Shown: positions 12,630 through 32,827 of the stretch, piece after piece
Numbering within the stretch: position 1 is the stretch's first letter
Layout: each line of letters opens with the position of its first letter
DNA from: Methyloprofundus sp.
GTDB lineage: Bacteria > Pseudomonadota > Gammaproteobacteria > Methylococcales > Methylomonadaceae
DNA length: 33,602 bases
Assembly: GCA_012960135.1 (NCBI GenBank)
Contig: DUBW01000020.1
Coordinates: 1-33,602 of the forward strand
Direction: 5' to 3'
The notes under the pieces: generated by a model
What the model saw: only the letters and a program-made list of their open reading frames with translations
What the model was told of the DNA's origin: nothing
Databases searched by the model: none
Position numbers and translations under genes: made by a program

Positions 12630-12631
12630 AA

Positions 12632-13554: not shown

Positions 13555-13558
13555 TAGA

Positions 13559-14504: not shown

Positions 14505-14506
14505 GA

Positions 14507-15676
14507 TTACAAACCCATTTTATGTGCTCGTGAACTGAAAAAAATACCACTGGGATTTTCAGCGGGTAAACGTATAATTTCTTTAAAACTTTCCGTGTCA
14601 TAAACAACCAGCTGATTATCATCACGTACTGAAACCCAGACTTCTTCCCCACGAGGAGTAAATTCCATATGTAAAACAGCTTTACCCGGCGCTAAAGATT
14701 TGATTATAGTTAAATCTTTAGCATCAATAATTTGTAACTTTTGATTATCCGGAAAAGCAAAATTCACCCAGATATGTCTACCATCAGGTCGAGCCATAAC
14801 AAATACAGGCTGCCCTGCTACGGGAATACGCTTAACCAGAGTCCATGAGCGTTTATCAATTACTAAGACTTCATGCTGACCTACCGCAGGAATTAACATA
14901 TAGTCTCCAGCAACCGCCCAGCCTTCCAGATGTGGCATTTTGTAGACAGGCAGTTTTTCATCTTCTTTACCATAATCGGGTAAAATTCTCTTAACACCTG
15001 TTTCAGGATTCCATAAATCCAATACAGCCAATCCCTGCTCACCAAATAAGCCAGCAATATAATAACGACCATCAGGACTTAATAAAGCATCGTAAGGCTG
15101 TTTACCAATGGCTTTAAATTTTTTAATCTCTGGTTTTTTAGGATTATTAATATCGACCAACCAGATTTCACCCGCATCAAATAGACTAAATACAAACTGC
15201 TGATTCGGTGCATCAACTAAACCTACCACTTTAGAAAGTTTATTTTCGCCATATTCTGCTGGAATCTCAGCGACTAATTCTAAGGTTTCAGTTAAAAATA
15301 TTTTGATCCCCCCTGGCGTATAATTTGAAACAGCAATGAAATGGCCATCTTGCGAAATAGCGCCTCCAATACTATTGCCTGCCTGAATAATGCGTTTGGC
15401 GACTTTATCCTGTAGTAAATCAATTTTAGTTAACCCGCCATCCCGTCCAAAAATAAAAGCATAACGTTCGTCACGTGAAAACACCACTGATGCATGTGAT
15501 AAATCACCTAAAGACTCAATTTTTGCAAGTATTGAACGCTGACTGGTGTTGATAATTAGCGCACTGCCTTTTGCGCGCTCTATAACAATACCCAAATCAC
15601 CTGTTGCACGATATTCTGCAACAGCACCATGTGAAACCAATAGGCATAAAAAGAGTGAGAATCTTAATTTGATCAT
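14507..15676 (-). CDS. nirF: Heme d1 biosynthesis protein NirF
   Basis: A 389-residue periplasmic protein with a Sec signal (LRFSLFLCLLVSHGAVA), an eight-bladed propeller like the d1 domain of NirS but without a cytochrome domain. DLSHASVVFSRDERYAFIFG is the typical N-terminal blade. NirF binds heme d1 or its precursor and acts late in d1 maturation. There is no lipobox, so it is soluble, unlike the lipoprotein form in Pseudomonas. The C-terminus (ENPSGIFFSSRAHKMG) resembles the end of the NirS in this operon. Confidence 0.92.
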   Translation of the reverse strand: MIKLRFSLFLCLLVSHGAVAEYRATGDLGIVIERAKGSALIINTSQRSILAKIESLGDLSHASVVFSRDERYAFIFGRDGGLTKIDLLQDKVAKRIIQAGNSIGGAISQDGHFIAVSNYTPGGIKIFLTETLELVAEIPAEYGENKLSKVVGLVDAPNQQFVFSLFDAGEIWLVDINNPKKPEIKKFKAIGKQPYDALLSPDGRYYIAGLFGEQGLAVLDLWNPETGVKRILPDYGKEDEKLPVYKMPHLEGWAVAGDYMLIPAVGQHEVLVIDKRSWTLVKRIPVAGQPVFVMARPDGRHIWVNFAFPDNQKLQIIDAKDLTIIKSLAPGKAVLHMEFTPRGEEVWVSVRDDNQLVVYDTESFKEIIRLPAENPSGIFFSSRAHKMGL

Positions 15677-15711
15677 GCTTTGAGAGTAGAAAAAATAACA
15701 GGATTAAAAAG

Positions 15712-16023
15712 CTAGTGGCGTTTAAGAATTGTTTGTACCAACCAAAGGGTTTCTTGTTCGCTTATAAAGGGCTTCCAGGGTGGCATCGCCGTTCCTTTAC
15801 GTCCATTTTGAATGGTATCTACTAAGTAGTCATCAGACTTAGCGGCTAAGTCACTGGCTAATAAAGCAGGACCTAACCCACCTTTTAAAGTAAGTCCATG
15901 GCAGGCTCCGCAATCATGCCTGAGCATATTGCGGAGCGTTTCTTGCCGTTCCTGAGGCGGAGGGTCGGCTAAAACCTGTGCCTGACTAAGTAAGCCAAGA
16001 CACAAGAATATAGTGCGATGCAT
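15712..16023 (-). CDS. nirC: Periplasmic cytochrome c, NirC-like
   Basis: A 103-residue monoheme cytochrome with a signal peptide (FLCLGLLSQAQVLA), heme site CGACH (Cys38, Cys41, His42) and axial Met in TAMPPW. Size and place before nirF fit NirC, which can donate electrons to NirS and is linked to d1 maturation. Its start shares a base with the stop of the preceding cytochrome gene. Confidence 0.85.
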   Translation of the reverse strand: MHRTIFLCLGLLSQAQVLADPPPQERQETLRNMLRHDCGACHGLTLKGGLGPALLASDLAAKSDDYLVDTIQNGRKGTAMPPWKPFISEQETLWLVQTILKRH

Positions 16024-16337
16024 CAGTTGTAAGGTTTTAAACGACTGTAATAAGACGCGATATTATTAATGTCGCGGTCTGACAAAGAACCAGCAATATT
16101 ATTCATAATATCTGAAACACGGGTTTTATCCCGGTATTGTTTTAACGCCATTTCCAGATATTCCTTATCTCTTCCCGCTAAAGGTGGAAAGGGAGCGTCA
16201 GCACTGGTTGATCTGATACCGTGACACTGAGCACAGACTGCGGCAGCTTTAGCTTTTCCTGCATAAATACTGGCGGCTTGCGCTGTTGCGGAAAACATCA
16301 TCGTTAATAACAGCGTTACAAGTAAACGTAAGTTCAT
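16023..16337 (-). CDS. Periplasmic cytochrome c (c553/c4-half-like), probable NirS electron donor
   Basis: 104 residues from MNLRLLVTLL, with signal peptide ending AQAA and heme site CAQCH (Cys35, Cys38, His39). The likely axial Met is in VSDIMNNIAG. It resembles one half of a cytochrome c4 rather than Pseudomonas c551 (NirM), but occupies the nirM position between nirS and nirC. The ATG at 16337 has GGAGTAAGG before it, overlapping the nirS stop; the longer frame from 16370 would add 11 residues without a ribosome site. Confidence 0.85.
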   Translation of the reverse strand: MNLRLLVTLLLTMMFSATAQAASIYAGKAKAAAVCAQCHGIRSTSADAPFPPLAGRDKEYLEMALKQYRDKTRVSDIMNNIAGSLSDRDINNIASYYSRLKPYN

Positions 16338-16341
16338 CACC

Positions 16342-17904
16342 TTACTCCATTTCATCAGGGGATAAACCACGTGTCATGTATTTAACACGACCTCTTGAAA
16401 AAATACCGGCAGGGCTTTCCATTTGTACTGAAGCCACTTTTTTCAGTGAATGTGAATCATAAACAACCACTTCATCCCCTGCATAACCCGCACTCACATA
16501 CAAATATTGCCCATCTGCACTGTATTCAGGGAAATAAGCATGGCCACCCACATCCAGAGTTTTAACAACTTCCAATGATTTTTTATCGATTAATTGTATG
16601 GTGCGAGCGCGTCTGTCTTTAGTAATAACATCAACCGCAACATAAGGAGCATTTGCATGTGCAGCGGGTGACTCTGTACCGCCGGAAACAGGCACCTGCT
16701 TAACCAGTTCCATTTTATCCAGATCCCAGACACTCACAACGGTATTGTTATCACAGGTTCCAAAATTAGTTCCAAAACCTAAAGTACGACCATTCACCTT
16801 AACAGCTGCCCCCCCTCCTACATGAGGTACACAGCCTGCTTTCAGTTTTTTGATGATTTTACGATCTTTTAAATCAATAGCAGCGACGATACTGTCATCA
16901 TAAGAGGCAACCATTAATTTACGCCCTTTATGAGTCAAAAATGCATCATGTAAATGCCTACCCACATTTTTTATTTTGGTTACTGGAAAACCGTCTTTTA
17001 AATCAACAACCCAGACTTGACCAGCATTTTCTAAGGCAATCGCAAAAATATCAGCATAAGGTGTCCCGATAATCATACCCGAATCTGATGTTACCATTTT
17101 TCCATCAGGATCTACGCCTTCAAGCTCAAACAATTTTAAAGGCTCTAAATCCGCATTTAAAATCACTGCATTATGCGGGATAAAAGAGCCTGCCATGATG
17201 TAGTTACCATCACGCGAAACTCCCATACTAGGTCCGTTATAACCTGTTTTAATACTACGCACTGCCTGCATGGAATATAAATCGACTTTAAATATTTCAG
17301 CCGTATCTGTTTTGACATAAGCCCAGCGCTCATTTGCCGGATCAAAATCAATAATATGCGCCGCTGTTCCTGTCTCTATTTCACCGACTATCTTATGCGT
17401 TTTACTATTGATAAAAACAGCTTTAGAACCAGTCCCACGCCCATATTTTCCACGCGCAGCCACACCGATCAAATCATCCATACTATCAATTTGATAAGTA
17501 GGTTTTGATGGTAATTTACTTTCATCCTTAACATAGACTTTTAAAGACGCTTGCATATCTTTAATAGTCCAGGGAGGGTTGTCTAATTTAGGTGTAGACT
17601 GCAGATGCTTCACCATTGAGCGAATATCATTGTCACTCAAACGGCCATAGAATGGAGGCATTAAGGTTTCAAAACTACCGGTCATAATTAAAGAACGTAA
17701 CGCTGTAGGACTACGGCCTTTTAGAGTTTCAGAGTTTAAAGCGGGAGCTAGATATCCACCATGGTCCGAACCGTGGCAACTGGCACAATTATCTTGATAC
17801 AATTTATGCATATTATCTGAACTTGCCTGAAGACTACCGGATGACAAGAGTAAAGCGACAGCACCCGCTAAAAAAGGTGTCTGCAATGGAATTATTTTTT
17901 TCAT
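16342..17904 (-). CDS. nirS: Cytochrome cd1 nitrite reductase NirS (divergent)
   Basis: 520 residues from MKKIIPLQTP, with AGGAAAC upstream; the ATG at 17925 is too early. A Sec signal ends near SLQA. The cytochrome c domain has CASCH (residues 40-44) and Met82 (TLMPPF). The propeller binds heme d1: proximal His183 (AAHIIDF), and His319 (HLHDAF) and His361 (CVPHVGGG) match the two catalytic histidines of Pseudomonas NirS, 42 residues apart in both. It reduces nitrite to NO in the periplasm. The HDGG and PHPGRGAN motifs of classical NirS are altered, and the PHNAVILNADLEPLK stretch recalls NirN. First gene of the nir operon; no clear FNR-type box was seen upstream. Confidence 0.87.
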   Translation of the reverse strand: MKKIIPLQTPFLAGAVALLLSSGSLQASSDNMHKLYQDNCASCHGSDHGGYLAPALNSETLKGRSPTALRSLIMTGSFETLMPPFYGRLSDNDIRSMVKHLQSTPKLDNPPWTIKDMQASLKVYVKDESKLPSKPTYQIDSMDDLIGVAARGKYGRGTGSKAVFINSKTHKIVGEIETGTAAHIIDFDPANERWAYVKTDTAEIFKVDLYSMQAVRSIKTGYNGPSMGVSRDGNYIMAGSFIPHNAVILNADLEPLKLFELEGVDPDGKMVTSDSGMIIGTPYADIFAIALENAGQVWVVDLKDGFPVTKIKNVGRHLHDAFLTHKGRKLMVASYDDSIVAAIDLKDRKIIKKLKAGCVPHVGGGAAVKVNGRTLGFGTNFGTCDNNTVVSVWDLDKMELVKQVPVSGGTESPAAHANAPYVAVDVITKDRRARTIQLIDKKSLEVVKTLDVGGHAYFPEYSADGQYLYVSAGYAGDEVVVYDSHSLKKVASVQMESPAGIFSRGRVKYMTRGLSPDEME

Positions 17905-17963
17905 TTTGTTTCCTGTTTTCCTCAAGTGAAATATTCAGATAATAATGTTAAAACATAAAATAA

Positions 17964-19557: not shown

Positions 19558-20514
19558 TTAATTTGTTAATACACCCGTACAACTCGATCCTTGCCCAGCA
19601 GTACACCCATAACAATGCTCTGCCACAGTAATAGGCAGCCCATCTGGCATGTGATTTAGTAACTTACTCAGGTGAGTACGCTTTCCTGCTAACGGCATGT
19701 CCAGCATTTGATTAAAATCACAATCATAAACATAGCCCTGCCAATCCACGCTTAATAAGCTTTTACACATTAATTGCTCGAGGTTTTGCGCCTGATAGGA
19801 TTGTTTCAATAGTGTCATATATTCATCAAACTGACCTTTAGCCTGTAATACAGCACCAAAGCGCTGAATCGGCATATTCGTAATGGTAAACAATTGATTA
19901 AATTGCAGATCAAAATGCTCACTAAGAAAAGTGCGATAGGACTCTTCCAGTTGTAATTGTGGTGAAGGTAAAGCCATACCTTGCGGATTAAAGACCAGGT
20001 TTAATATTAAGTCGCCACCCGCCTGGCCATAACCCAATTGATTAAGTTTTTGCAGGGCTTTTATCGATGCGTTAAACACCCCTTTACCTCTTTGTGCATC
20101 AACATTATCTTCCATATAACAAGGCAATGAGGCTATCACTTCAACCTGCTGCGCTGCCAGGAATTCAGCCATATCTTCATAACCAGGTTCGACCAGAATG
20201 GTAGGATTACAGCGATCCATTACATGCAGGCCCTGATCTCTGGCGGCCTGCACTAGCCAGCGAAAATCGGGGTTCATTTCCGGCGAACCGCCTGTTAAAT
20301 CCAGAAATTCAAGCTGATGTTTAGCCGCAAATTGTAAGGCAATTTGCATCGTTTCACGCGCCATTAATTCGGTCCGGTTCGGCCCGGCATTGACATGACA
20401 ATGCGTACAACTCAAATTACACAAATATCCCAAATTCATTTGCAAGGTCTTTAACTTGCCTCGATGAATCGGGGGGAAATCACTATTCAGTAATAAGGGT
20501 TTGACGTCACGCAT
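19558..20514 (-). CDS. arsS: Arsenosugar biosynthesis radical SAM protein ArsS
   Basis: A 318-residue cytosolic enzyme. The radical SAM motif CNLSCTHCHVNAGPNR (three Cys) is typical of the ArsS/Cys-rich radical SAM group. The C-terminal DUF3641 domain has CDFNQMLDMPL and the terminal HCYGCTAGQGSSCTG. ArsS joins the 5'-deoxyadenosyl group to dimethylarsenite, giving the precursor of oxo-arsenosugars. Third gene of the arsM-glycosyltransferase-arsS unit, 20 bases after its neighbour. Normal length. Confidence 0.93.
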   Translation of the reverse strand: MRDVKPLLLNSDFPPIHRGKLKTLQMNLGYLCNLSCTHCHVNAGPNRTELMARETMQIALQFAAKHQLEFLDLTGGSPEMNPDFRWLVQAARDQGLHVMDRCNPTILVEPGYEDMAEFLAAQQVEVIASLPCYMEDNVDAQRGKGVFNASIKALQKLNQLGYGQAGGDLILNLVFNPQGMALPSPQLQLEESYRTFLSEHFDLQFNQLFTITNMPIQRFGAVLQAKGQFDEYMTLLKQSYQAQNLEQLMCKSLLSVDWQGYVYDCDFNQMLDMPLAGKRTHLSKLLNHMPDGLPITVAEHCYGCTAGQGSSCTGVLTN

Positions 20515-20534
20515 TTTAATACCGTTTATTAATA

Positions 20535-21221
20535 TTAAGTAAAGTTGAGCTGCATTACATCCAGAAAACGGATAAGTTCATATTGCTCAGGTAATGGCTC
20601 AGGAAGATTTAGCAAAGCATCGCGACAGGGTAATAAATCATGCGCTTTATCCACATCACATAAAGAGGCTAAAGTCTTAACCTCACCATATTGCACGATT
20701 TTGTTGAAAAATTGCGTACCCGTATCGACTTGGCTGTAAACCACATCTGTCCAGATATTCTCAGGTATATTGCAATTTCCACCGAATGCCCAGAATCCCC
20801 CGTCAACACTGGGAGCAAATACAAAGCGCGCCTGCTCTGCATGCGGTAACCAGGTCGATGCAATCAGCAGCTCAGCGCTCGTCATCTGGGGAATATCGGC
20901 ACCAACCAGTATCACAAAATCATGCTCTGCTAGCAGGGTCTGATAAATATGTGCCATGCGCTCACCCAGACCGCCCTCTCCTTGCCAGACACACGCTAAG
21001 TCTTGCCAGTAGTAACTATGCTGTAACGCTGTTTGCTCAGCTACCGCATAATAACTCCGCACATCCGCCAGCTTACTTAACTCCTGAACCACTGAAGATA
21101 CTGACTGAGCAGATGCAAGATGAAAAGCTTCGGCTGCTTCCTTGCCGATTGTAGCCGCGAGGCGGGTCTTTACCTGTGAAAGTCCTGGGGTTTTAACAAA
21201 TACTGCGATTGCACCACTCAT
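20535..21221 (-). CDS. TIGR04282-type glycosyltransferase of arsenosugar cluster
   Basis: A 228-residue GT-A fold protein: AIAVFVKTPGLSQVKTRLAATIG start (nucleotide-binding loop with KTPGL-KTRL), VILVGADIPQM (metal-binding Asp in GADxP) and APSVDGGFWAFGG. The family is close to CofC-type and other nucleotidyl/glycosyl transferases (DUF2064) and occurs beside arsS and arsM in many bacteria, where a step in arsenosugar assembly is supposed. It lies 35 bases downstream of arsM. Confidence 0.88.
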   Translation of the reverse strand: MSGAIAVFVKTPGLSQVKTRLAATIGKEAAEAFHLASAQSVSSVVQELSKLADVRSYYAVAEQTALQHSYYWQDLACVWQGEGGLGERMAHIYQTLLAEHDFVILVGADIPQMTSAELLIASTWLPHAEQARFVFAPSVDGGFWAFGGNCNIPENIWTDVVYSQVDTGTQFFNKIVQYGEVKTLASLCDVDKAHDLLPCRDALLNLPEPLPEQYELIRFLDVMQLNFT

Positions 21222-21256
21222 AAACTAATTCCCTTGCTGTTATTCTTGTACGATCA

Positions 21257-22303
21257 TCAGCAACATGCGGCCCCAGATTCTAGCGATATACTGGTATTTG
21301 GTGGCGCACAATCAAATAAACCGAAATGCTGCGACTTATTACCTATCAACTCAAAATGCATTGCATAACGGCCTAAAGTGAGCATCTCAAAAGTATTACC
21401 ACAGACACGTAAAGGCTTACCCGTTTCAAAATGATGGTGATCATCCAGGTCGAAAGCATGTGGGTATTCAGTGATCGTGCCTTTATAGATAGCAAGCTGA
21501 CCAAAGTCTTCACAACGATCTTCTAAGGATATTTTAAAGGCTCGAATAGTCACGGAACGGAAATTCACCATGCCAATTTTGGCGTCCACTTCTGGGTCTT
21601 CCAATGCGATTGGGCTTTCCTTTACCACGCGCACATCGGGACAGCCTAACTCCTGCATTATGCGGCGAAAGTCTTCCCAATATAAAGCGCCGCCCAGGCA
21701 TTCACCTAATAATACGGGCTCAATTTTTAGCGCCTGCGGTATACGTCGATCAGCATAAACATCAGAAAAATAGATTTCGCCACCGGGTTTTAATACCCGT
21801 AAAATTTCAGCTAAAACCTGTTTCTTATCTGGGGATAAATTAATCACACAATTCGATACCACCAAATCTATAGAGTTATCGGCAATACCAGCAGTCGCCA
21901 GATCTTCCATGTAGCCCTGCTTAAATTCGACATTAGAACTGGCATAACCATAACGTTGAGCATGCCAGTCGCAATGCTCTTTAGCGATAGCCAATTGTTC
22001 TGTCGTCATATCAATGCCTATCACGCGCCCTGATTCGCCAACTAAACGCGACAATAAATAACAGTCGCGCCCGGTACCACAGCCAAGATCCAGGACCGTA
22101 GCGCCGTCTAACGCAGGTGGTAACGGTGTGCCGCAGCCATAATAACGCTCCACAACCTCAGGATGTAAGTCGGACAATAAAGGCCGTAAATGCTGGGGAA
22201 TAGAATCTAAGGTACAACAAGCACTTGTTTTTAAGTCCTGGCTGGATTTAAGCACTTGCCCGTAATAATTTTGCACTGAGTCACTAATGCTAGTGTCGGT
22301 CAT
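21257..22303 (-). CDS. arsM: Arsenite S-adenosylmethionine methyltransferase ArsM
   Basis: A 348-residue cytosolic methyltransferase. The SAM loop VLDLGCGTGRD is at residues 70-80. The As(III)-binding cysteines are visible: Cys29/Cys30 (SACCTL), Cys152 (SNCVIN) and Cys202 (GECLGGALY). The C-terminal domain ends ESGAACC with a Cys pair common in this family. It methylates arsenite stepwise to mono-, di- and trimethyl forms; dimethylarsenite would feed ArsS. First gene of the minus arm, divergent from arsR. Confidence 0.94.
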   Translation of the reverse strand: MTDTSISDSVQNYYGQVLKSSQDLKTSACCTLDSIPQHLRPLLSDLHPEVVERYYGCGTPLPPALDGATVLDLGCGTGRDCYLLSRLVGESGRVIGIDMTTEQLAIAKEHCDWHAQRYGYASSNVEFKQGYMEDLATAGIADNSIDLVVSNCVINLSPDKKQVLAEILRVLKPGGEIYFSDVYADRRIPQALKIEPVLLGECLGGALYWEDFRRIMQELGCPDVRVVKESPIALEDPEVDAKIGMVNFRSVTIRAFKISLEDRCEDFGQLAIYKGTITEYPHAFDLDDHHHFETGKPLRVCGNTFEMLTLGRYAMHFELIGNKSQHFGLFDCAPPNTSISLESGAACC

Positions 22304-22595
22304 AAAAACTCCTAATAAAGAGACGAATTCGTATTTGAGTATATTTATAGGTCGTAAATGTACAGGATTTCTTACAACAGAGTGAGAGTTTATTATTTAG
22401 TTTTGTAAATTCAACTCAATTGATGCGCATTGATCATCAACACACCCTATGCCCCTTGGTTTAGAAACCATTAATAGTTCTATAAGACGCCTGAAAACAA
22501 ATAATCAAATAGATAATGGGTTATTTTGCTTTAGTGCTCGTTCAATATAACGCTTGGGTGACATATTGCCTAAATAAACTCAACGCAGCAAAAAG

Positions 22596-22637
22596 AGTTG
22601 CAATTGCAACTTTACATATATATGCTTATACGTATAT
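22596..22637. promoter_or_regulatory. Candidate ArsR operator and palindrome upstream of arsR
   Basis: AGTTGCAATTGCAACT (22596-22611) is a perfect 16-bp palindrome, directly followed by TATATGCTTATACGTATAT, whose core ATATGCTTATACG recurs before arsI. ArsR bends such AT-rich imperfect dyads. The 350-base gap 22304-22653 between arsM and arsR holds no gene and should contain both divergent promoters. Confidence 0.6.
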
Positions 22638-22653
22638 CAAGGTGAGATAATTT

Positions 22654-23001
22654 ATGACCCCCCCACAATTTTTTAAATGTTTATCCGATGATACACGCTT
22701 GCGTTGTATCACTCTGTTGCAAAAAGAAGGCAAACTGTGCGTCTGCGAACTAACAGTTGCACTGGCTTTATCGCAACCTAAAATTTCTCGCCATCTGGCA
22801 TCACTAAGGCTATGCAGTTTATTGCAGGACAGCCGCGAGGGTCAATGGGTTTATTATCAGATTAACCCTGAGTTACCTAACTGGACGACTTCTTTGTTAA
22901 AGAATGTCTTGGCGACTGTCGAATCCACTAAGCTTTTTAAAGACGATCTGCAACGCTTGCAAACAATGAACAACCGCCCTGACAAACTCATTTGTTGCTA
23001 A
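22654..23001 (+). CDS. arsR: Arsenite-responsive repressor ArsR
   Basis: A 115-residue ArsR/SmtB winged helix: FFKCLSDDTRLRCITLL, then KLCVCELTVAL with Cys29 and Cys31, the type 1 As(III) site in the first recognition-region helix, then SQPKISRHLASLR recognition helix. The C-terminal Cys pair (LICC) is extra. Arsenite binding releases it from DNA. AAGGTGAG precedes the ATG. It heads arsR-arsI-arsC-acr3 and most likely represses both arms. Confidence 0.94.
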   Translation: MTPPQFFKCLSDDTRLRCITLLQKEGKLCVCELTVALALSQPKISRHLASLRLCSLLQDSREGQWVYYQINPELPNWTTSLLKNVLATVESTKLFKDDLQRLQTMNNRPDKLICC

Positions 23002-23012
23002 TTTTTTTACTA

Positions 23013-23038
23013 TTAATATATGCTTATACGCATATTAA
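23013..23038. promoter_or_regulatory. Second candidate ArsR operator, upstream of arsI
   Basis: The segment contains ATATGCTTATACGCATAT flanked by TTAAT/TTAA, nearly identical to the element before arsR over 13 core bases. It lies between the arsR stop and the arsI ribosome site, suggesting an internal ArsR-controlled promoter or roadblock. Confidence 0.6.
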
Positions 23039-23059
23039 TTTATCTTCATAGGAAGTCTA

Positions 23060-23512
23060 ATGAAACGATTACATATTCACCTTGCAGTAGAAGACCTGAA
23101 GCAGAATATTGCATTTTACAGTACGATGTTTGGCTGCCAGCCAACCCTACAGCATGAGGACTATGCAAAATGGATGCTGGATGACCCGCGGGTGAATTTT
23201 GCAATTTCTAATCGTAGTCAAAAGCTTGGTCTCGATCATCTGGGTATTCAGACAGAGAATGAACAGGAATTACAGGCGATCAAACAACAACTGGATGCCA
23301 CACAGGTGCCAATTGAAGCTCAGGAAAGTACAGCCTGCTGTTATGCACGTTCGGATAAATACTGGATTACTGACCCTCAGGGCATTGCCTGGGAATCGTT
23401 TCATTCACTAAGTGAAATCCCGACTTTTAACGATCAAATACCGGTATCTGATGATGAAAATACTGTTGCTTGTCGGCCCGCGGAAAATAAGCAAACATCC
23501 TGTTGTGGCTAG
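23060..23512 (+). CDS. arsI: ArsI/CadI-type dioxygenase, C-As bond lyase
   Basis: A 150-residue vicinal-oxygen-chelate protein. The non-heme iron triad is His5, His60 and Glu112, and the organoarsenical-binding Cys pair is Cys93-Cys94 (TACCYARSDKYW), all at the places known from ArsI. It cleaves the C-As bond of methylarsenite with O2, giving arsenite. A Cys-rich tail (SCCG) is present. AGGAAG precedes the ATG. It lies between arsR and arsC. Confidence 0.92.
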   Translation: MKRLHIHLAVEDLKQNIAFYSTMFGCQPTLQHEDYAKWMLDDPRVNFAISNRSQKLGLDHLGIQTENEQELQAIKQQLDATQVPIEAQESTACCYARSDKYWITDPQGIAWESFHSLSEIPTFNDQIPVSDDENTVACRPAENKQTSCCG

Positions 23513-23565
23513 GCTTACTCGCAAAAGTTCATGCCTTACCTGCGTATGATAGAAAAGGAATAAAC

Positions 23566-24060
23566 ATGTTAAATATATTTGTAATCTGCACTGGTAATTC
23601 TTGTCGTAGCGTTATCGGCGAAGCCCTGTTGAATCATTTAGGGAAAGGTCGCATTAAGGCCTATTCGGCGGGCAGTCATCCTATTGGAAGAATCAATACA
23701 GGCGCATTGGCAACTTTAAATCGCCATAATTTACCGCCCGAAGGCTACCAAAGCCAGTCCTGGAAAGATTTTGAAGATATTCCGATGGATATTGTGATTA
23801 CTGTTTGTGATAACGCAGCAGATGAAACCTGTCCTGTTTATCTGAGTAAAGCCATCCGGACGCATTGGGGTGTATCGGATCCAGGGCATGTCGAAGGCTC
23901 AGAAGAAGAAAAGATTACCGCCTTTGAAGAAACCTTTGACCTGTTGCAGCTGCGTGTGCAAAAAATGTTGGCATTACCCCTGGAAACAATGCTCCCCGAA
24001 GAACTGACGGAAAAACTTAATACCATTGGCAAACTATCTTTAACCGAAGGTGAGAACTAA
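23566..24060 (+). CDS. arsC: Arsenate reductase ArsC, thioredoxin-coupled LMW-PTP type
   Basis: 164 residues from MLNIFVICTGNSCRS; the phosphatase-like loop CTGNSCR (Cys8-Arg14) holds the nucleophile. Cys81 and Cys89 (VCDNAADETC) are the redox pair of the thioredoxin-linked pI258 type. It reduces arsenate to arsenite for Acr3. AAAGGA precedes this ATG; a longer frame from 23503 overlaps arsI and lacks family similarity. The C-terminal extension (ETMLPEELTEKLNTIG) is usual in proteobacteria. Confidence 0.93.
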   Translation: MLNIFVICTGNSCRSVIGEALLNHLGKGRIKAYSAGSHPIGRINTGALATLNRHNLPPEGYQSQSWKDFEDIPMDIVITVCDNAADETCPVYLSKAIRTHWGVSDPGHVEGSEEEKITAFEETFDLLQLRVQKMLALPLETMLPEELTEKLNTIGKLSLTEGEN

Positions 24061-24063
24061 ATC

Positions 24064-25236
24064 ATGATAGAAAAACAACATAACATGGGCTTTTTTGAAC
24101 GCTATCTGACACTTTGGGTAGCTTTGTGTATCGGCGCAGGTATTCTGCTCGGGGCTTATACCCCGAAATTTGCCAAAACACTGGATGGTATGAGCATCAA
24201 TATTAATGGTGCGCCAGTCATCTCCCTACCCATTGCTGTGTGTCTTTTTTTTATGATGTATCCGATTATGGTGAAAATTGATTTTGCTGAAGTGGTAAAA
24301 GCAGGAAAAAGCATCAAGCCAGTTACGCTGACCTTGATTGTCAACTGGGCTATTAAACCCTTTACCATGTATGCCATTGCTTATTTTTTTCTGGGCATAT
24401 TGTTCCAGCAGTTTATTGGAGCGGATGCAGTTGATTTAATAAAAATGCCCTTTGGTTTAGATTTGCCTATAGGCAATCATTATGGATCGGGCACAGTGGT
24501 GATGCATGAAGGCATCAAAATGCTCCAAGTCCCGCTCTGGCGTAGCTATCTCGCTGGTTGTATTCTACTGGGGGTGGCACCGTGTACCGCTATGGTCTTA
24601 GTCTGGGGTTATCTAGCTAAAGGTAATGCCGGACATACTCTGGTAATGGTTGCCATCAATTCGCTGATTATGCTGGTGCTATATGGTGTTATTGGTGGCT
24701 TTCTGTTGGGTGTGGGGCAATTACCAGTGCCGTGGGAGGCACTGTTATTATCCATTAGTATTTATGTCGCCTTGCCCTTGTTCGCGGGCTACTTTTCACG
24801 CAAATGGGTGATTGCGCACAAAGGCTTGAGCTGGTTTGAACAGCAATTTTTACATATCCTGACCCCGATCACGATCATTGCCTTATTATTGACGCTAGTT
24901 TTACTTTTTTCCTTTAAAGGCTCCGTCATTATTGACAACCCATTAACCATTTTATGGATTGCCATTCCTTTAGCCTTACAAACCCTGCTGATCTTTACCA
25001 TCACCTATATGGCAGCAAAAGCCTGGGGGCTTTCTTATGAAAATGCCGCACCATCGGCCTTGATCGGTGCGTCCAATCATTTTGAAGTAGCGATCGCTAC
25101 CGCAGTGATGTTATTTGGTCTGTCATCCGGTGCAGCGCTGGCAACGGTGGTTGGTGTGCTGATTGAAGTACCTTTGATGTTAGCACTTGTGGGCTTTTGC
25201 AAACGTACAAAAGGCTGGTTTCAAGTAATAGAATAA
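24064..25236 (+). CDS. acr3: Arsenite efflux carrier Acr3
   Basis: A 390-residue inner-membrane protein with about 10 hydrophobic segments of the BART superfamily. The essential Cys174 is in [12 protein letters not shown] and the conserved Glu in SNHFEVAIA. It exports arsenite by proton antiport. A ~30-residue loop before the Cys helix ([14 protein letters not shown]-type, residues ~120-158) is longer than in the shortest Acr3 proteins; it may be a subgroup trait. It starts 3 bases after the arsC stop and ends the operon. Confidence 0.93.
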
Positions 25237-26839: not shown

Positions 26840-27613
26840 ATGCTTGAAAATATATCTATAAAGAAAATTATACTTTTTTCATTAACGAGTGCCGTACTGG
26901 TCGCTAGCCAAAGCAACTTTGCCCATACACGCTTCAAAACTCCAGTTATTGACGAAAATGGTAGTCGTCATGGTAGCGATTATAATGCTGAAGTTATCGG
27001 ACATACGTGTAAGACGGACGACGGCGTGGCCCTTGATCTATTAGGCACGGTTGTTGTGTTCCCTGATGGCGTAGATTCAACGCTAACCGTTGATGGTGTA
27101 GCTTCAGATAAAAAAGTGATTGATTTTGTGACTAACTGGGGAAGCCCGGTACAGTCAATTTCTAATAAGGATGTTTTTGGATACCAAGATGAAATCAATA
27201 CCCCACTTGGAAACACTGTTGGTTATTGGATGGGTGGCGGTCCAGGTTTGCAAAATAACCTAGCCGCAGTACTCCCTTTTAGAACCAGTGGAGTGGTAAT
27301 TGACGAAACATCATGTGCCAAAAGCGTTACATTTAGAACTAACATTGCGGATATCTGCGTAATCACTAAAGCTTCTGAGTTCTCTACAAATGCTCTTAAC
27401 ATCTGGTCAGTTGCAGTAGAAGGATCAAAATTTCAAATCCCAGGTTCTAAAGGTGATGATTCCCCAGCAACCCTTAAGGTAAATCGCACTAGTCCCATGC
27501 CCGAAGACTGTGGCGAGGGCGTTGACGTGATCGTAACACCAACAGCGGCACAGATCAATCGCGACATGCCTATAATAATTAACGGCGAACAAGTATGGCC
27601 GCTACCTGAATAA
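26840..27613 (+). CDS. Secreted protein of unknown family with possible His-first mature end
   Basis: 257 residues; AGAGAAG upstream of the ATG. A signal peptide (IILFSLTSAVLVASQSNFA) ends either after VAS or after FA; the second would leave His29 (HTRFKTP) first. The mature protein has four Cys (GHTCKTDDG, ETSCAKS, ADICVIT, PEDCGEG), likely two disulfides, and a Gly-rich GYWMGGGPG. The HTC-DDG stretch resembles AHITCYDDG in the next gene, so the two may be distantly related. A periplasmic or extracellular metal-binding role is a guess. A terminator follows, so it is its own transcription unit. Confidence 0.75.
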   Translation: MLENISIKKIILFSLTSAVLVASQSNFAHTRFKTPVIDENGSRHGSDYNAEVIGHTCKTDDGVALDLLGTVVVFPDGVDSTLTVDGVASDKKVIDFVTNWGSPVQSISNKDVFGYQDEINTPLGNTVGYWMGGGPGLQNNLAAVLPFRTSGVVIDETSCAKSVTFRTNIADICVITKASEFSTNALNIWSVAVEGSKFQIPGSKGDDSPATLKVNRTSPMPEDCGEGVDVIVTPTAAQINRDMPIIINGEQVWPLPE

Positions 27614-27631
27614 AATAGATTATTTATTCCC

Positions 27632-27672
27632 ATTAAAACACTCCAGTGCTTTATACACAGGAGTGTTTTAAT
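27632..27672 (+). terminator. Strong hairpin terminator
   Basis: ATTAAAACACTCC pairs perfectly with GGAGTGTTTTAAT (13 bp, 15-base loop), the 3' arm ending in TTTT. It lies 18 bases after the stop of the gene at 26840. Confidence 0.8.
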
Positions 27673-27763
27673 AAAGTTAAATTGTGCGCCAGTTTAAAAA
27701 ATAGTACTTTGTGTATTATAATAGGCAGCGCTTTTTATGTGTTAAAAAAACTGAGGATAATCC

Positions 27764-28219
27764 ATGAGCAATCGATTACTAAGCAAAGCAGCACTAAGTG
27801 CGGCTATATTAAGCATTGGAATATATAGTACTGCGCATGCACATAACGGTAGTGCAACATTAAACCCGCTGGGTGGCAACCCCAGTGCAACCGACTTAGC
27901 ACATATCACCTGTTATGATGATGGCAATGGAAATCCAGCAAAACTAAGAGTACAGATTAAAGATCAATCAGAGCCTGTTGATGGATTATTGCTTAGCGTG
28001 CAAATTTATAAAGGTCTCAAAGCAATCAGTATTACTGATCCTGTTTCAGGCGACGCTGATTATAGCCAGGCCATTGAACTAGATGCTGGCCTTGGGGTTT
28101 ACTCGGTTATGGTGGATAAAACAGCTGCGGGACCGAGAAGATTTAATTTAGTTTGGCACTGTTTAACTGCCGAAAACATACACACTGGTACGGATATTGT
28201 CGTAAGACAAATTCAGTAA
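27764..28219 (+). CDS. Small secreted protein, predicted to begin with His after cleavage
   Basis: 151 residues, GAGGATAATCC before the ATG. The signal peptide ends with a textbook TAHA|HNGSA site (Ala at -1 and -3), leaving His27 as first residue. The mature ~125 residues look like a beta-sandwich with one Cys pair (HITCYDDG, VWHCLTAE) and His at 48, in WHC and in ENIH. An N-terminal His plus an internal His is the pattern of copper histidine-brace proteins (CopC, LPMO, DUF4198), but the family is not recognised. It is 9 bases before the thioredoxin gene, so the two are co-transcribed. Confidence 0.75.
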   Translation: MSNRLLSKAALSAAILSIGIYSTAHAHNGSATLNPLGGNPSATDLAHITCYDDGNGNPAKLRVQIKDQSEPVDGLLLSVQIYKGLKAISITDPVSGDADYSQAIELDAGLGVYSVMVDKTAAGPRRFNLVWHCLTAENIHTGTDIVVRQIQ

Positions 28220-28228
28220 ATAAAACTC

Positions 28229-28789
28229 ATGCTTTATTTCAAATCCTATTATTTTTTCTTGCGATTGTTAGCGAAACGCACACTATGCTTGACTGGCCTG
28301 GCATGCATCAGCTTTACTGCTATTGCATCTACTGGCGAATCAGGTCAAATTAGCCCTCCCTGTGCACTGAGTTCGCTAACATCTGAGCAAAAAACAAATC
28401 TTAAACAATATGCAGGTCAAGTTGTTTATCTGGACTTCTGGGCTTCCTGGTGTCCACCTTGCGCCAAATCATTTTCATTTTTAAATCAACTGCATCGTGA
28501 TCTGCAGGCAGATGGCCTGGTTGTAATTGGGGTTAACATGGATGAGCATGTAGCAGATGCTACAAAATTTTTACAACGCTATCCTGCAGAATTTATGTTA
28601 GCTAGTGACCAGACAAAACAATGTGCAACAGATTTAAATGTACGTGCAATGCCCTCTTCCTATCTAATTGACCGCAACGGTGTCATCCGTTATGTGCACT
28701 TAGGTTTTCGCTCAGGGGATAGTGAGCAGCTGCTTGATGAAGTTCAACAGTTGTTAGCCGAACCTGCTATGACCGATGAGACACAGTAA
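28229..28789 (+). CDS. TlpA/ResA-like periplasmic thioredoxin
   Basis: A 186-residue protein. The N-terminal hydrophobic stretch (LCLTGLACISFTAIAS) is a signal peptide or anchor. The thioredoxin fold has the active site FWASWCPPCAKS (Cys75, Cys78), GVNMDEH and the cis-Pro loop RAMPSSYLIDRNG. WCPPC is typical of disulfide reductases of the TlpA/ResA group, which keep periplasmic Cys reduced for heme or copper insertion. Its neighbours have Cys pairs (preceding secreted protein) and a CGC tail (DUF4266 lipoprotein), likely clients. Confidence 0.9.
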   Translation: MLYFKSYYFFLRLLAKRTLCLTGLACISFTAIASTGESGQISPPCALSSLTSEQKTNLKQYAGQVVYLDFWASWCPPCAKSFSFLNQLHRDLQADGLVVIGVNMDEHVADATKFLQRYPAEFMLASDQTKQCATDLNVRAMPSSYLIDRNGVIRYVHLGFRSGDSEQLLDEVQQLLAEPAMTDETQ

Positions 28790-28881
28790 TTATTCGCCAC
28801 GCTCATGGAGGGCAATTCTACTAATGTAGTCGTTGCAGTTTTGTGTCAGAAATACAAACTCTCGCTAAAAACACTTATTTT

Positions 28882-28906
28882 TCATCAGCAAAGTATAAGC
28901 TGATGA
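28882..28906. repeat. Hairpin in the thioredoxin-DUF4266 gap
   Basis: TCATCAGC and GCTGATGA form an 8-bp stem with a 9-base loop. No T-run follows. In the 195-base gap it may end or process the upstream transcript. Confidence 0.45.
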
Positions 28907-28984
28907 CACAGCTAAAATATAAAGGTAGGACATAGCCATTACAAGCGGCAAGACATGGACGTCTAAAATTCGCAAAGAACGCTC

Positions 28985-29236
28985 ATGATCGATAACTATC
29001 CCCGCTTATTAATGAACATAACTAATCCACTTAAACTAGTGTTATCGACAATTTTACTCTTGTCATCAATCGCCTGTAGCTCAGTAGCGCCGTGGGAACG
29101 AGGTAATCTAGCCAAACCACATATGGCTATCGACCCTCACCCTATGCAGAACAGCCTGCGTGGCCATGCGTATGGCAGTCGTGAAGCAGCTGGAGCCATC
29201 AGCGCTGGCGGCGGTGGTGGTTGTGGCTGCTATTAA
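28985..29236 (+). CDS. DUF4266 lipoprotein
   Basis: 83 residues, or 74 if translation starts at the ATG at 29012. Lipobox SSIAC with lipidated Cys31. The mature part has the DUF4266 blocks SVAPWERGNLAKPHMA, DPHPMQNSLRGHAYGSREAA, a Gly run and a terminal CGCY. The protein is tiny, conserved and of unknown function; a C-terminal CGC could bind copper or heme-like cofactors, or exchange disulfides with the neighbouring thioredoxin. Its stop overlaps the start region of the DUF3570 gene, so the two are translationally coupled. Confidence 0.87.
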   Translation: MIDNYPRLLMNITNPLKLVLSTILLLSSIACSSVAPWERGNLAKPHMAIDPHPMQNSLRGHAYGSREAAGAISAGGGGGCGCY

Positions 29237-31895
29237 ACGCCCTGCCCCTGCTAAAAACAATGCACTACAGGCTTTAACCTCCGCTGCATTAGTATTACCA
29301 GGACTAGTCTCTTCTCCCGTTAAGGCACTAGAAGTCAACAGTGTTGATTTCCAGTATAGTCATTATCAGGAGGGCGGGCGTGACTTAATCAATATAAATA
29401 GTGGCCTAGCTCCGATTGAAGTAGATACTATTCATTTAAGATCCAATCTAAGCCTGGCTGATAGAATAAGATTTTCCTTTAATTATGTGCAGGACACCTG
29501 GTCAGGTGCTACTCCTGTTACTTCAGCGCCTATAGTAACAGGTGGGAATTCGCCCATATTAGTCAATACTCCAGATGGCGTTACTACGGTTGGAGCCTCT
29601 CCGTTAATCACCGGTAATATTGCGCTGAATCGGGATTTACTTCCACTCAGTCAATTCAGCTCCGGGCAAGCTGCAATACCCAATACTCAAACGGTTGAGG
29701 TGTTATCAACAGCATCCCCAGAAACCCGGAATCAAGTAGATATACGGCTGGGTTATGAATGGGATGAAGTAGCTTTGGACCTGACTGGTGGAGTCTCAAT
29801 AGAACGCGATTATACATCAGGATTTGGTGGAATTATCGGGCGCTGGGATTTAAATCAAAAACTTACCAGCCTGAATGCCGGGCTCAATTATACCTATAGC
29901 AACACATCGGCCATACTTGACCATGATGCAACCCCCTACATAACAAAAGCAGCGTATATAGATCAAATTGAATTACGCGGCGGTTCCGAGATTTTTCATG
30001 GCCATCGCCAGGATTGGGCTACCAATGTTGGCATTAGCCAGGTACTCAATAAAAACGCAGTACTCGATGCGACTCTTAGCTATATTAACAGCAGTGGTTA
30101 TCTAGGTAATCCCTATAAAGTCGTGACCGCTATATTCGTTGATCCCGACCAAATAGAAAGTGGACAAGAAGTGCTGAGGGGCGATGTTCAAGCCTTAATG
30201 GAGCAAAGGCCAGACAGGCGTAATCAAATGGCTATCGGCGGAAAATATGTGCAGTATGTAGAGCCTCTTGATGCAGCTGTCCATTTAAGCTATCAATTTT
30301 CTCATGATGACTGGGGAATCAATGCCCATATTTTCGAAGCTGACTGGGTACAACCTTTAGGCCTTGGCTGGACGGTCACCCCTAGGATTCGCTATTACAG
30401 TCAGAATGCGGCTAATTTTTATCAGCCTTATTTAACCGTGGAACAAGCTTATAGTCAGCAGGCAGTTGATGATCAGGGGCGTGAAATCTGGGTCGATGCC
30501 AGCAATCCGGATAACGGTGTGGAATATGTTCGTGATGCAAATTATAATTTGCTTGATGCTCAAGGTAATATGGTTGATGAAAGTGAACTTAATGTACGCA
30601 ATAAAACCATCCCATTTGATGCATCAAAATTGCCAGATAATTTCTCCAGCGACCATCGATTATCAGGATTCGGTGCACTTAGTGGAGGCTTGAGCATTAC
30701 CAAACAATTTTCTCGCGGGATTGGTTTACAAGCCAGCTTTGAATACTACTCACATGCCGGCGGCCTGAAATTAGGCGGTGGTGGAGCGGGCGCCTACGCA
30801 AATTTTGACTACTATGTCGCCAGTGCAGCCTTAACCGTTGACCTGTCCGCAGCGGCTAATTCATTGAGTCATAATAGCCATCATCACGGTAGTGACGATC
30901 ACCAACAACATATGCATAATGTCCCGGCAGGATTGCGTTTTGCTCATATGATGCCACAAGCGGATAGCTGGATGATTGGTTATCAATTTATGTATGGTGC
31001 TACAGGTGACGGAATGCGCCATGGAAAAAATCCTGCACGCGATCTGGACGTGGTACAAAATGGCTGTAGTGATGCGCTACCCTGTCGTTTTACACCTAGT
31101 GACATGAATATGACCATGAGTATGCTCAATATCATGTATGCCCCCACCGACTGGTTAAACCTGATGTTAATGCCACAGTTTGTTTCCAAGAGTATGCATA
31201 TACGCGAACTAGAGGGACGTCCTCCTCCCAGTCTTGATGTACATGAGCATACTGGTATTGGCGGACATGAAACAGGAGGAGTAGGTGACACCTTGTTCGG
31301 GGCTTTAGTCGATATCTGGAATCAGCCGGGGCATGAAGTGCATATGGGTTTAATGTTTAGCGCACCGACAGGCGCTGTAGATCTGGAGTTTAGACGGATT
31401 GCACGAACAGATGGTGGTTTGATACATTTTGGTATGCAGCTGGGTAGCGGTACCTGGGATTTTTTACCCAGTGTGACCTATAACGGCATGTACGCTGATT
31501 GGTCATGGGGAGCACAGCTCAGTGGAACGGTGCGCATGCAAGAGGAAAACCGCAGCGGTTATCGACTGGGCAATATTTTCCAGGCGACAACCTGGGGAAA
31601 TTATAATATCACGCCGTGGCTCTCTGCATCATTACGTGGTGTTTATACCTGGCAGGATTCAATACACGGAGACTATAACGGTTTTAATGCCGGAGCTGGA
31701 CCTATGGATTATCCAGATAATTATGGCGGCAGTTTCTGGGATGTTGGTTTTGGCTTAACAGCACGTGTGGTAAAAGGTGATCTGGTGGGAAATAGCGTTA
31801 GTTTCGAATGGTTGCAACCGGCAGGTGATGATTTTAAGGGTTATCAGCTTGCGCGTGATGGTGCATTAAGTGTTACCTGGAATTTCAGCTTCTAA
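29223..31895 (+). CDS. Fusion of DUF3570 barrel and a second His/Met-rich outer-membrane barrel
   Basis: The frame is open from 29160 (GTG), but the first ~21 codons there only mirror the Gly-Cys codons of DUF4266; the signal peptide (NNALQALTSAALVLPGLVSSPVKA) supports a start near GTG 29223, or ATT 29232 overlapping the DUF4266 stop. Up to about base 30840 it is a DUF3570 beta-barrel (FQYSHYQEGGRDL). Bases 29493-29522 encode DTWSGATPVT, fitting the ApbE target motif D-x-x-S-G-A-T. A His-rich linker (SHNSHHHGSDDHQQHMH, 30870-30918) joins a second barrel rich in Met and His (MNMTMSMLNIMYAP; SKSMHIREL) ending in WNFSF, a normal barrel C-terminus. Normally these are separate proteins. Function unknown; outer-membrane location inferred. 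Confidence 0.85.
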   Translation: MAAIKRPAPAKNNALQALTSAALVLPGLVSSPVKALEVNSVDFQYSHYQEGGRDLININSGLAPIEVDTIHLRSNLSLADRIRFSFNYVQDTWSGATPVTSAPIVTGGNSPILVNTPDGVTTVGASPLITGNIALNRDLLPLSQFSSGQAAIPNTQTVEVLSTASPETRNQVDIRLGYEWDEVALDLTGGVSIERDYTSGFGGIIGRWDLNQKLTSLNAGLNYTYSNTSAILDHDATPYITKAAYIDQIELRGGSEIFHGHRQDWATNVGISQVLNKNAVLDATLSYINSSGYLGNPYKVVTAIFVDPDQIESGQEVLRGDVQALMEQRPDRRNQMAIGGKYVQYVEPLDAAVHLSYQFSHDDWGINAHIFEADWVQPLGLGWTVTPRIRYYSQNAANFYQPYLTVEQAYSQQAVDDQGREIWVDASNPDNGVEYVRDANYNLLDAQGNMVDESELNVRNKTIPFDASKLPDNFSSDHRLSGFGALSGGLSITKQFSRGIGLQASFEYYSHAGGLKLGGGGAGAYANFDYYVASAALTVDLSAAANSLSHNSHHHGSDDHQQHMHNVPAGLRFAHMMPQADSWMIGYQFMYGATGDGMRHGKNPARDLDVVQNGCSDALPCRFTPSDMNMTMSMLNIMYAPTDWLNLMLMPQFVSKSMHIRELEGRPPPSLDVHEHTGIGGHETGGVGDTLFGALVDIWNQPGHEVHMGLMFSAPTGAVDLEFRRIARTDGGLIHFGMQLGSGTWDFLPSVTYNGMYADWSWGAQLSGTVRMQEENRSGYRLGNIFQATTWGNYNITPWLSASLRGVYTWQDSIHGDYNGFNAGAGPMDYPDNYGGSFWDVGFGLTARVVKGDLVGNSVSFEWLQPAGDDFKGYQLARDGALSVTWNFSF

Positions 31896-31921
31896 ACAGA
31901 TAAGAAATCCACTTTACAACG

Positions 31922-32827
31922 ATGCAATTATTTCATTATGAATTCAAGGCGATGGGCACAGCCTGTACTATTCAGTTATATGCGCAAAATACGCAGCTAG
32001 CCAAAAACATTTCAGCGGCAGTTATCACCGATGTTAATCGCCTGGAACTAAAATATTCACGTTACCGATCTGATAGTCTGCTTTCTAAAATCAATCGTCT
32101 AGCTGCAAAAGGCGGCAAAATCCGAGTGGATGATGAAACCGTTAGTTTATTAAATTATGCTACAACCTGTTATCAACAAAGCGGTGGATTATTTGATATA
32201 ACTTCTGGCATTTTACGCCATATCTGGCAGTTTCAACAACATGCCCTGCCAGATGAACAACAGATAGCTGCTATACGTAATAGAATAGGCTGGCAACGTG
32301 TAAATTGGTCGGCACCGCATCTAGAATTCCCTGAACCGGGATTTGAGCTTGATTTTGGAGGTATTGTTAAAGAATATGCCGTTGATCGTGCTGCTATTAT
32401 AGCTCAGGAATCAGGTATGCAATATGGCATTATCAATCTGGGTGGCGATATTAGAGTTGTAGGTCCACACGCTAATGGCCAGCCCTGGGTAGTAGGGATT
32501 CAACACCCACGAGAACAGCAACAAGTAATACAAAAAATAAACTTAAGCCAGGGAGCATTAGCAAGCAGCGGTGATTATGAGCGTTGCATTGTTGTTAATA
32601 ATCAGCGTTACGGCCATGTATTTAACCCTCGAACTGGCTGGCCGGTTAGTCATTTAGCCGCTGTTAGCGTGGTCAGTGAATTATGTGTTGTAGCAGGCAG
32701 TGCCGCGACCATTGCCATGCTCAAAGAAAGCTTAGGCACTCAATGGCTAGCACAACTTGGATTACCCTATTTATGGGTAGATGTTCAAGGAAAAAGTGGT
32801 GGCTCACTGTTAGATCAGCAAGATTAA
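31922..32827 (+). CDS. apbE: ApbE-family FAD:protein FMN transferase
   Basis: A 301-residue protein with the ApbE blocks FKAMGTACTIQLY, FDITSGIL, DFGGIVKEYAVDRA, IINLGGDIRVVG, SSGDYER and HVFNPRTGWPV. The family links FMN from FAD to a Thr or Ser in a D-x-x-(S/T)-G-A-T motif using Mg2+. No signal peptide or lipobox is present and an in-frame stop 18 bases upstream rules out a longer start, unlike most periplasmic ApbE proteins. It lies 26 bases after the DUF3570 fusion, which is the only obvious target here. Confidence 0.92.
   Translation: MQLFHYEFKAMGTACTIQLYAQNTQLAKNISAAVITDVNRLELKYSRYRSDSLLSKINRLAAKGGKIRVDDETVSLLNYATTCYQQSGGLFDITSGILRHIWQFQQHALPDEQQIAAIRNRIGWQRVNWSAPHLEFPEPGFELDFGGIVKEYAVDRAAIIAQESGMQYGIINLGGDIRVVGPHANGQPWVVGIQHPREQQQVIQKINLSQGALASSGDYERCIVVNNQRYGHVFNPRTGWPVSHLAAVSVVSELCVVAGSAATIAMLKESLGTQWLAQLGLPYLWVDVQGKSGGSLLDQQD

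Follow-up and report, generated by a model that had tools for sequence, protein, structure and literature searches.

A conserved flavinylation site in a fused DUF3570 variant with two predicted barrels

The window analyzed here, a stretch of 33,602 nucleotides of Methyloprofundus sp. DNA (assembly GCA_012960135.1, contig DUBW01000020.1, positions 1 to 33,602), encodes a DUF3570 protein with the gene for an ApbE flavin transferase directly downstream. The protein possesses a true conserved flavinylation site, belonging to a family already known to be flavinylated and set inside a fused variant of that family. Counted from the first possible start it is 911 amino acids long, about twice the ~420-residue DUF3570 domain, and we refer to proteins of this build as long forms. 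The domain is matched by PF12094 (E 6.4e-107; 358.4 bits against a curated cut-off of 25; profile positions 2-427 of 427), and residue T114 within it is nearly certain to be the site at which flavin mononucleotide (FMN) is attached.

29268..30818 (+), DUF3570 domain, predicted barrel of ~16 strands; from PF12094 and an AlphaFold2 model
29493..29522 (+), flavinylation motif DTWSGATPVT; from the translation and the positions conserved in an alignment of long forms
29511..29513 (+), codon ACT of the acceptor Thr, T114 as numbered from the ATG at 29172; Thr in 53 of 53 sequences

The motif D-x-x-[ST]-G-A-[ST] occurs once in the 911-residue protein, which holds only one [ST]GA[ST] along its whole length. 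As 197 of 20,000 shuffles of the protein also contain the motif (p ~0.01 for the match alone), we take it to be genuine because of its conservation, which goes beyond a match at that chance level. In alignment A2, comprising 53 of the 82 listed long forms, the motif positions D, W, G, A, T, and P are the same in all 53 sequences, and S is kept in 48 (Gly in four, Ala in one). An earlier note on this DNA had fitted DTWSGATPVT to the ApbE acceptor consensus, assigned the acceptor Thr to 29511-29513, placed apbE 26 bases downstream, and took the motif stretch to be among the best conserved of DUF3570; the translation and the alignment bear this out, with the TAA stop at 31893-31895, the apbE ATG at 31922, and the conserved stretch inside the predicted barrel. 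Of the positions whose invariance it proposed to check (D, SGA, and T), D, G, A, and T are invariant, and S is the variable member.

Across 120 distinct long forms, the motif column reads [ST]GA[ST] in 101, DTWGGATP in 14, DTWAGATP in two, and DTYVGATP in one; the remaining two are misaligned at this column, yet D[TI]YSGATP is present elsewhere in them. The note had staked its proposal on conservation of the site in family members that neighbor apbE, and there 78 of 80 long forms with ApbE in the fetched locus retain the full motif, versus 26 of 40 without (Fisher p 2.5e-6, uncorrected for kinship; an ApbE missing from the fetched stretch is not the same as an ApbE missing from the genome). 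The commonest exception is DTWGGATP, several copies of which come from one genome, G035. This genome possesses 15 DUF3570 matches, most of which are long forms, and DTWSGATP is replaced by DTWGGATP in five or more, an unexplained family expansion (L068, L070-L075, L078, L080, L094).

Flavinylation of a DUF3570 homologue has been demonstrated by others. Meheust et al. co-expressed the Chlorobium luteolum DUF3570 protein with its ApbE in 2021 and obtained an ultraviolet-fluorescent band, the flavin being lost only upon Ser-to-Ala replacement at two sites (PMC8238504). The expectation in the earlier note that a flavinylated DUF3570 would be new was thus overtaken by this report (PMC8238504), and the candidate description of the window protein as a new kind of flavinylated protein was rejected on the same ground. 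The C. luteolum and window proteins share PF12094, an [ST]GA[ST] acceptor motif, and an adjacent apbE. Compared by description, the former is a ~420-residue domain with two motifs, both modified, whereas the latter possesses one canonical motif and adds a His-rich linker, a second barrel, and two upstream genes, Up1 and Up2 (PMC8238504). The 2021 text contains no match for ‘barrel’, copper, Nitrosomonas, or methanotroph (PMC8238504), and no description of a fused flavin-barrel/second-barrel variant was found in the literature searched. What goes beyond that paper is the long form itself, with its two predicted barrels, His linker, and nine invariant Met residues, together with the lost Gly of the second site, the ApbE apparently devoid of a signal peptide, the Up1/Up2 partners, and the class-wide co-occurrence of the fusion with pmoB/amoB. 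The second barrel, the degenerate site, the ApbE without signal peptide, and the two upstream partners are also absent from the earlier note.

Short forms of the same genus (e.g. L101, L112) hold two motifs, D-x-x-SGASP and QVLSGAS. Two stretches of the window protein bear on the second of these.

29589..29600 (+), VGAS stretch between the motif and LSTAS
29703..29717 (+), LSTAS, corresponding to QVLSGAS, the second motif of the short forms, with its Gly lost

At the column of the second short-form motif, [ST]GA[ST] is found in none of the 120 long forms, and the proposition that all DUF3570 proteins have both sites was rejected for the long forms on this count; A181 and S182 of the degenerate site are nevertheless invariant in the 53 aligned sequences. 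As [ST]GA[ST] occurs at the VGAS stretch in 33 of the 120 (35 of 127 with duplicates included), another flavin may, judging from the sequences, be carried at the equivalent position in some relatives. The degenerate second site would also fit a motif that is flavinylated only on overexpression and has no role in the long form, as would the 16 of 120 long forms without the full motif, 14 of which have no ApbE in the fetched locus. The invariance of T114 and the retention of the motif beside ApbE argue the other way, and we consider such a lack of function very improbable.

A structural model of the long form was generated by AlphaFold2 using alignment A2 (mean predicted local distance difference test (pLDDT) score 79, predicted template modeling (pTM) score 0.74), with residues 564-580 poorly predicted. 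The strand list of this model, from which the counts are read, gives a DUF3570 part of ~16 barrel strands and a C-terminal part of 12, and we infer that DUF3570 is an outer-membrane barrel. In whole-length Foldseek searches, matches to TonB receptors rank higher, but their TM-scores of ~0.2-0.3 denote barrel likeness only. The motif lies within strand 99-120 (pLDDT ~83), with T114 16 residues past the turn at 95-98. Along this strand, in the 53 sequences, even positions are polar and odd positions hydrophobic (means -2.0 and 0.7), so that D108, W110, G112, and T114, all even, would face the barrel lumen; S182, on the next long strand, has the same parity as the T114 strand. In outer-membrane barrels, short turns usually face the periplasm and long loops the outside; this rule, applied to the model, would put T114 toward the outer half of the barrel.

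Downstream of the flavin barrel, the long form continues into a linker and a second barrel.

30837..30923 (+), His-rich linker joining both barrels; 4 to 11 His in each of 53 sequences
30924..31892 (+), C-terminal 12-strand barrel of COG4313/FapF-like fold; from AlphaFold2 and Foldseek
31104..31196 (+), methionine ladder M645, 647, 649, 651, 655, 665, 667, and 675, with a ninth, M755, at 31434-31436

The modeled fold of the C-terminal part bears some resemblance to that of the COG4313 channel (4rl8), of Phenol_MetA_deg (PF13557), and of FapF (5o65), the Foldseek search placing it near 4rl8 and FapF (TMt 0.66-0.72); the PF13557 profile itself matches four of 22 second-barrel members, the window protein not among them. 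Unlike COG4313 and FapF, the window barrel is fused behind a flavin barrel; it also has nine Met residues that are invariant among long forms. All nine ladder positions are Met in 53 of 53 long forms, and Met makes up 6.0% of the second barrel versus 0.8% of the DUF3570 part. Because the strand neighbors of the ladder residues alternate, we infer that the ladder faces the lumen of the second barrel. Outer-membrane proteins with several barrel domains per chain are a known kind, and the window protein, with two predicted barrels in one polypeptide, is like them; to our knowledge, none carries a covalent flavin.

The ladder is not confined to the fusion. In a class-wide sample of 370 genomes, the second barrel is present in 59, of which five possess the fused form (G000, G027, G032, G162, G612) and 54 only a standalone one. 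Among 20 standalone barrels examined from the 54 genomes, 17 have Met at all nine positions, the exceptions being L276, L277, and L281, and plasmid copies retain nine of nine ladder Met in Ruegeria, eight in Methylosinus, and one in Methylocystis. Since standalone relatives share it, the ladder is, on sequence grounds, a property of the barrel family, and the fusion to a flavin barrel appears to be the special feature here. The standalone barrels (L263-L282) constitute a widespread group of Met-ladder outer-membrane barrels with weak Phenol_MetA_deg likeness. On the Methylosinus plasmid (L220, 6585-8801), a second-barrel domain is preceded by an N-terminal part of another kind and a linker very rich in His, beside feoB and a PepSY protein; this is perhaps another fusion of the same kind. 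An 808-residue frame in G589 was considered as a further fusion and rejected, as it gave no DUF3570 match.

We next consider the enzyme that would attach the flavin, and where in the cell it would act.

31922..32827 (+), ApbE flavin transferase without signal peptide; PF02424, E 3.5e-73

The MGT motif of the domain is separated from the preceding stop by 16 codons, which leaves no room for a signal peptide. Among the 89 ApbE genes that directly follow DUF3570 (65 with long and 24 with short forms), 53 likewise have 22 codons or fewer before the domain; 29 others have a longer frame devoid of a hydrophobic 12-residue window, four have such a window, and three could not be scored. A signal peptide is thus not evident in 82 of the 89. 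The test by hydrophobic window is crude: the same cut misses 18 of 161 DUF4266, 21 of 153 TlpA, 37 of 144 Up1, and 32 of 110 Up2 frames, and because it misses some secreted proteins, the 29 longer-frame ApbEs are softer evidence and the 53 alone are firm. The genome of the window also encodes a second ApbE, with a lipoprotein signal (LLSGC), which could act as well.

As the cluster ApbE possesses no signal peptide, the flavin would probably be attached in the cytoplasm, before export of DUF3570. In the published assay, signal peptides were removed from both test proteins, and DUF3570 was recovered by denaturing purification of the insoluble pellet (PMC8238504); given these circumstances, an unfolded DUF3570 chain may be an ApbE substrate. 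The literature searched, as far as its texts were available, yielded no report of an outer-membrane protein that receives its flavin ahead of export. The cytoplasmic ApbE of Klebsiella pneumoniae is similarly without a signal peptide, but its target is a soluble fumarate reductase, whereas that in the window is an exported protein predicted to reside in the outer membrane (PMC12052999). If true, a cytoplasmic ApbE tagging an outer-membrane protein departs from the usual arrangement in which a membrane-anchored ApbE modifies an exported protein, and a flavin-bearing chain passes the export machinery.

The genes upstream of DUF3570 complete a cluster which, from 26840 to 32827 (+), is ordered Up2, Up1, TlpA-like, DUF4266, DUF3570, ApbE.

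26840..27613 (+), Up2, secreted protein with a predicted mature N-terminal His and a faint DUF1775 likeness
27764..28219 (+), Up1, secreted beta-sandwich protein; His is the predicted first mature residue
28229..28789 (+), TlpA/ResA-like thioredoxin-fold protein; Redoxin and AhpC-TSA, ResA-like
28985..29236 (+), DUF4266 small lipoprotein ending in CGCY; PF14086

Up to 77 bases (29160-29236) are shared by the DUF3570 frame and the end of the DUF4266 gene, the candidate DUF3570 starts being 29160, 29166, and 29172, and the hydrophobic segment ALQALTSAALVLPGL is unusually conserved.

Profiles made from the genes of the window served to search DUF3570 neighborhoods, upstream counts being taken for genes with at least 5 kb upstream (91 long and 31 short forms) and downstream counts for those with at least 1.5 kb downstream. 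Among the long forms, 72 of 91 have a TlpA-like gene upstream and 74 of 91 have DUF4266 there; among the short forms, the counts are 29 of 31 and 30 of 31. ApbE follows directly in 61 of 100 long forms and in 24 of 39 short ones. Up1, by comparison, is found upstream of 77 of 91 long versus none of 31 short forms, and Up2 upstream of 63 of 91 versus one of 31. Besides the named families, two unnamed families recur among 81 loci, one of them in 31 and the other in 24. The thioredoxin-like and DUF4266 partners are common to the published clusters and that of the window (PMC8238504). Meheust et al. described clusters with DsbD, a thioredoxin-like protein, DUF4266, and ApbE and suggested DsbD as the electron supply, while 316 of their clusters are without DsbD (PMC8238504). 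In the genome of the window, the strong DsbD match is on another contig (C85), outside the cluster.

The thiol partners would also suit an envelope repair or redox-stress system, in which a flavin, fed by TlpA and the CxC lipoprotein, would hold a Met-rich outer-membrane protein in its reduced state. Their frequent presence upstream of both forms is in keeping with thiol or methionine repair, but the short forms possess no Met-rich part and the Pfam scan of the seven window genes detected no repair-enzyme family, making such a role improbable. A covalent flavin in a barrel, served by periplasmic thiol donors, is likewise reminiscent of an extracellular electron conduit akin to the MtrB/MtrA porin-cytochrome modules with flavin replacing heme, and there is earlier work on extracellular electron transfer in Methylococcus capsulatus (PMC6281684). 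One canonical flavin site would seem too few for a wire of such length, however, and the recurrent neighbors listed include no cytochrome or multi-flavin partner; the conduit, too, has a small chance of being correct.

The two proteins associated with the long form are less readily classified. The window Up1 and Up2 proteins match no Pfam family, other members giving weak and scattered matches, and profile searches of solved structures returned no convincing match for either. The mature protein is predicted to begin with His in 111 of 137 Up1 matches (with Asp in 11) and in 110 of 118 Up2 matches. The Up1 model is a beta-sandwich (mean pLDDT 88), and its identification as a CopC-type protein was left unsupported by a fold search with no PDB match at E 0.001.

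For Up2, the comparison of mature sequences with a DUF1775 set of 10 sequences, L225 being left out, gave a profile score of 28.9 and an HH-suite probability of 11%; signal peptides, if left in, inflate the score. The shuffle maxima were 28.7 in the first 60 and 24.0 in 300 with the terminal His fixed, 28.9 being above all 360. Up2 W130, invariant in 39 members (39 of 84 candidates), aligns near the WSGG of DUF1775. In the DUF1775 protein YcnI, the copper site is made up of the His at the N-terminus, a Glu, and a Trp close by (PMC8424229). Up2 resembles YcnI in its predicted mature N-terminal His and in stretches aligning with HGC and W-GG of DUF1775; unlike copper-binding YcnI, it fails the DUF1775 profile, and any copper binding by Up2 is putative (PMC8424229). 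No match to that profile was obtained among the 39 members up to E 1. With that HH-suite probability, and with the first shuffles coming to within 0.2 of the score, assignment of Up2 as a DUF1775 protein was not adopted and is suggestive only.

Taken together, the explanation that serves best overall, and which we put forward tentatively, is a flavin-bearing outer-membrane reductase, possibly of copper, fed by a thiol relay. The cluster's own ApbE would place FMN on T114 of the unfolded chain in the cytoplasm; the tagged chain would then be exported, folded, and inserted in the outer membrane with T114 facing the lumen. Electrons would pass from DsbD to the TlpA-like protein, on to the CxC tail of the DUF4266 lipoprotein, and thence to FMN, a chain of the kind suggested by Meheust et al. 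(PMC8238504); that the DUF4266 tail would reach into the barrel lumen is our own addition. The FMN would reduce a metal at the surface, the leading candidate being Cu(II), converted to Cu(I), which would travel through the Met-lined second barrel to the His-rich linker and the N-terminal His residues of Up1 and Up2, and the copper would be supplied to copper enzymes such as methane monooxygenase. That copper is the metal is a possibility about which we have considerable doubt. The sequence, its conservation, the order of the genes, the shortage of codons for a signal peptide in ApbE, and, by the work of others, flavinylation of a homologue are shown; the location of the protein, the electron path, and the metal are proposals. 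The complete proposal, a one-polypeptide cupric reductase and cuprous channel, charged with FMN in the cytoplasm and feeding the copper monooxygenases of methanotrophs and Nitrosomonas with Up1 and Up2 as acceptors, is on the unlikely side.

Transport of copper across the outer membrane is the task that the second barrel is proposed to share with PcoB/CopB, although it matches no PcoB/CopB protein among solved chains or Pfam models; we know of no flavin in PcoB. A 2026 study found PcoB/CopB almost only in comammox Nitrospira and not in most ammonia-oxidizing bacteria (PMC13374858). A Met-lined barrel joined to a flavin barrel, as present in methanotroph and Nitrosomonas genomes, is a candidate for the copper supply of methane- and ammonia-oxidizing enzymes. 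The fused variant makes the copper question testable. In the text examined, the methanotroph copper-response papers tie no gene to this cluster (PMC4831470, PMC11784148).

The distribution of the long form bears on this proposal. Relatives of the window protein are mainly methane and ammonia oxidizers: the best 80 of 540 confirmed relatives come from Nitrosomonas, Nitrosomonadaceae, or Methylococcales genera, save six under general labels (L140, L162, L177, L193, L195, L199), and the genome of the window itself possesses pmoB and DsbD. In the class-wide sample, PF04744 (pmoB/amoB) is found in all five fused-form genomes versus three of the 54 with standalone barrels only (p 1.1e-5, uncorrected for kinship, the five representing three families); the third of these families is that of G612, which has the motif DTWSGATP. 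In a phylum-wide sample of 299 genomes, the long form is present in G000 and G162, both with PF04744, while G226, the third PF04744 genome, gave no DUF3570 match. Among 61 relatives, 23 have the long form by frame length, 19 of them with PF04744, and in a selected set of 15 genomes PF04744 is present in 13, being absent from G020 and G367.

Several observations weigh against a copper-supplying reductase. Long forms without a PF04744 match occur in G020 (rated 100% complete), in G002, G013, and G015 (70-77%), and in G367 (the genome of L162). Across 101 Nitrosomonadaceae, PF04744 is present in 45 of 63 genomes with DUF3570 versus 26 of 38 without, so there is no link between the two inside this family, and the genus g212 has PF04744 with no DUF3570 match. 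The statement that the long form accompanies copper monooxygenase in all groups was accordingly rejected, and the class-wide statement alone stands. The conserved cluster includes no known copper gene, and the search with the Up1 fold returned no PDB match at E 0.001 or better. Standalone second barrels were not seen in copper operons among 125 neighbors from 20 of the 54 genomes: CusB-like and OEP families account for two of the 125 each, two-component kinases being most frequent at 10 (top 25 of 144 families). The pTM of 0.74 tempers the structural reading, and a single flavin near the outer mouth of the barrel leaves a long gap to the periplasm.

Iron in place of copper is a serious, if unlikely, rival: the flavin relay would act on Fe(III), reducing it for uptake either within the barrel or at the surface, and Fe(II) or a chelate would pass through the second barrel. 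The iron transporter VIT1 is present in 25 DUF3570 clusters (PMC8238504), a point that also counts against copper, and the second barrel on the Methylosinus plasmid adjoins feoB and the PepSY gene. The second barrel is lined by Met, not by the acidic or oxygen ligands that are usual for iron, and the Pfam scan of the seven window genes revealed no iron-transport family, both of which speak against iron.

Elsewhere in the window, two further clusters were labeled by reading alone. The region 11481-17925 is of the heme d1/cytochrome cd1 nitrite reductase type, with a radical SAM protein, four Lrp-type regulators, a NirF-like protein, a c-type cytochrome, and a cd1-type protein, and the region 19558-25236 is of the arsenic type, with an ArsM-like methyltransferase, ArsR, an ArsC-like protein, and ACR3.

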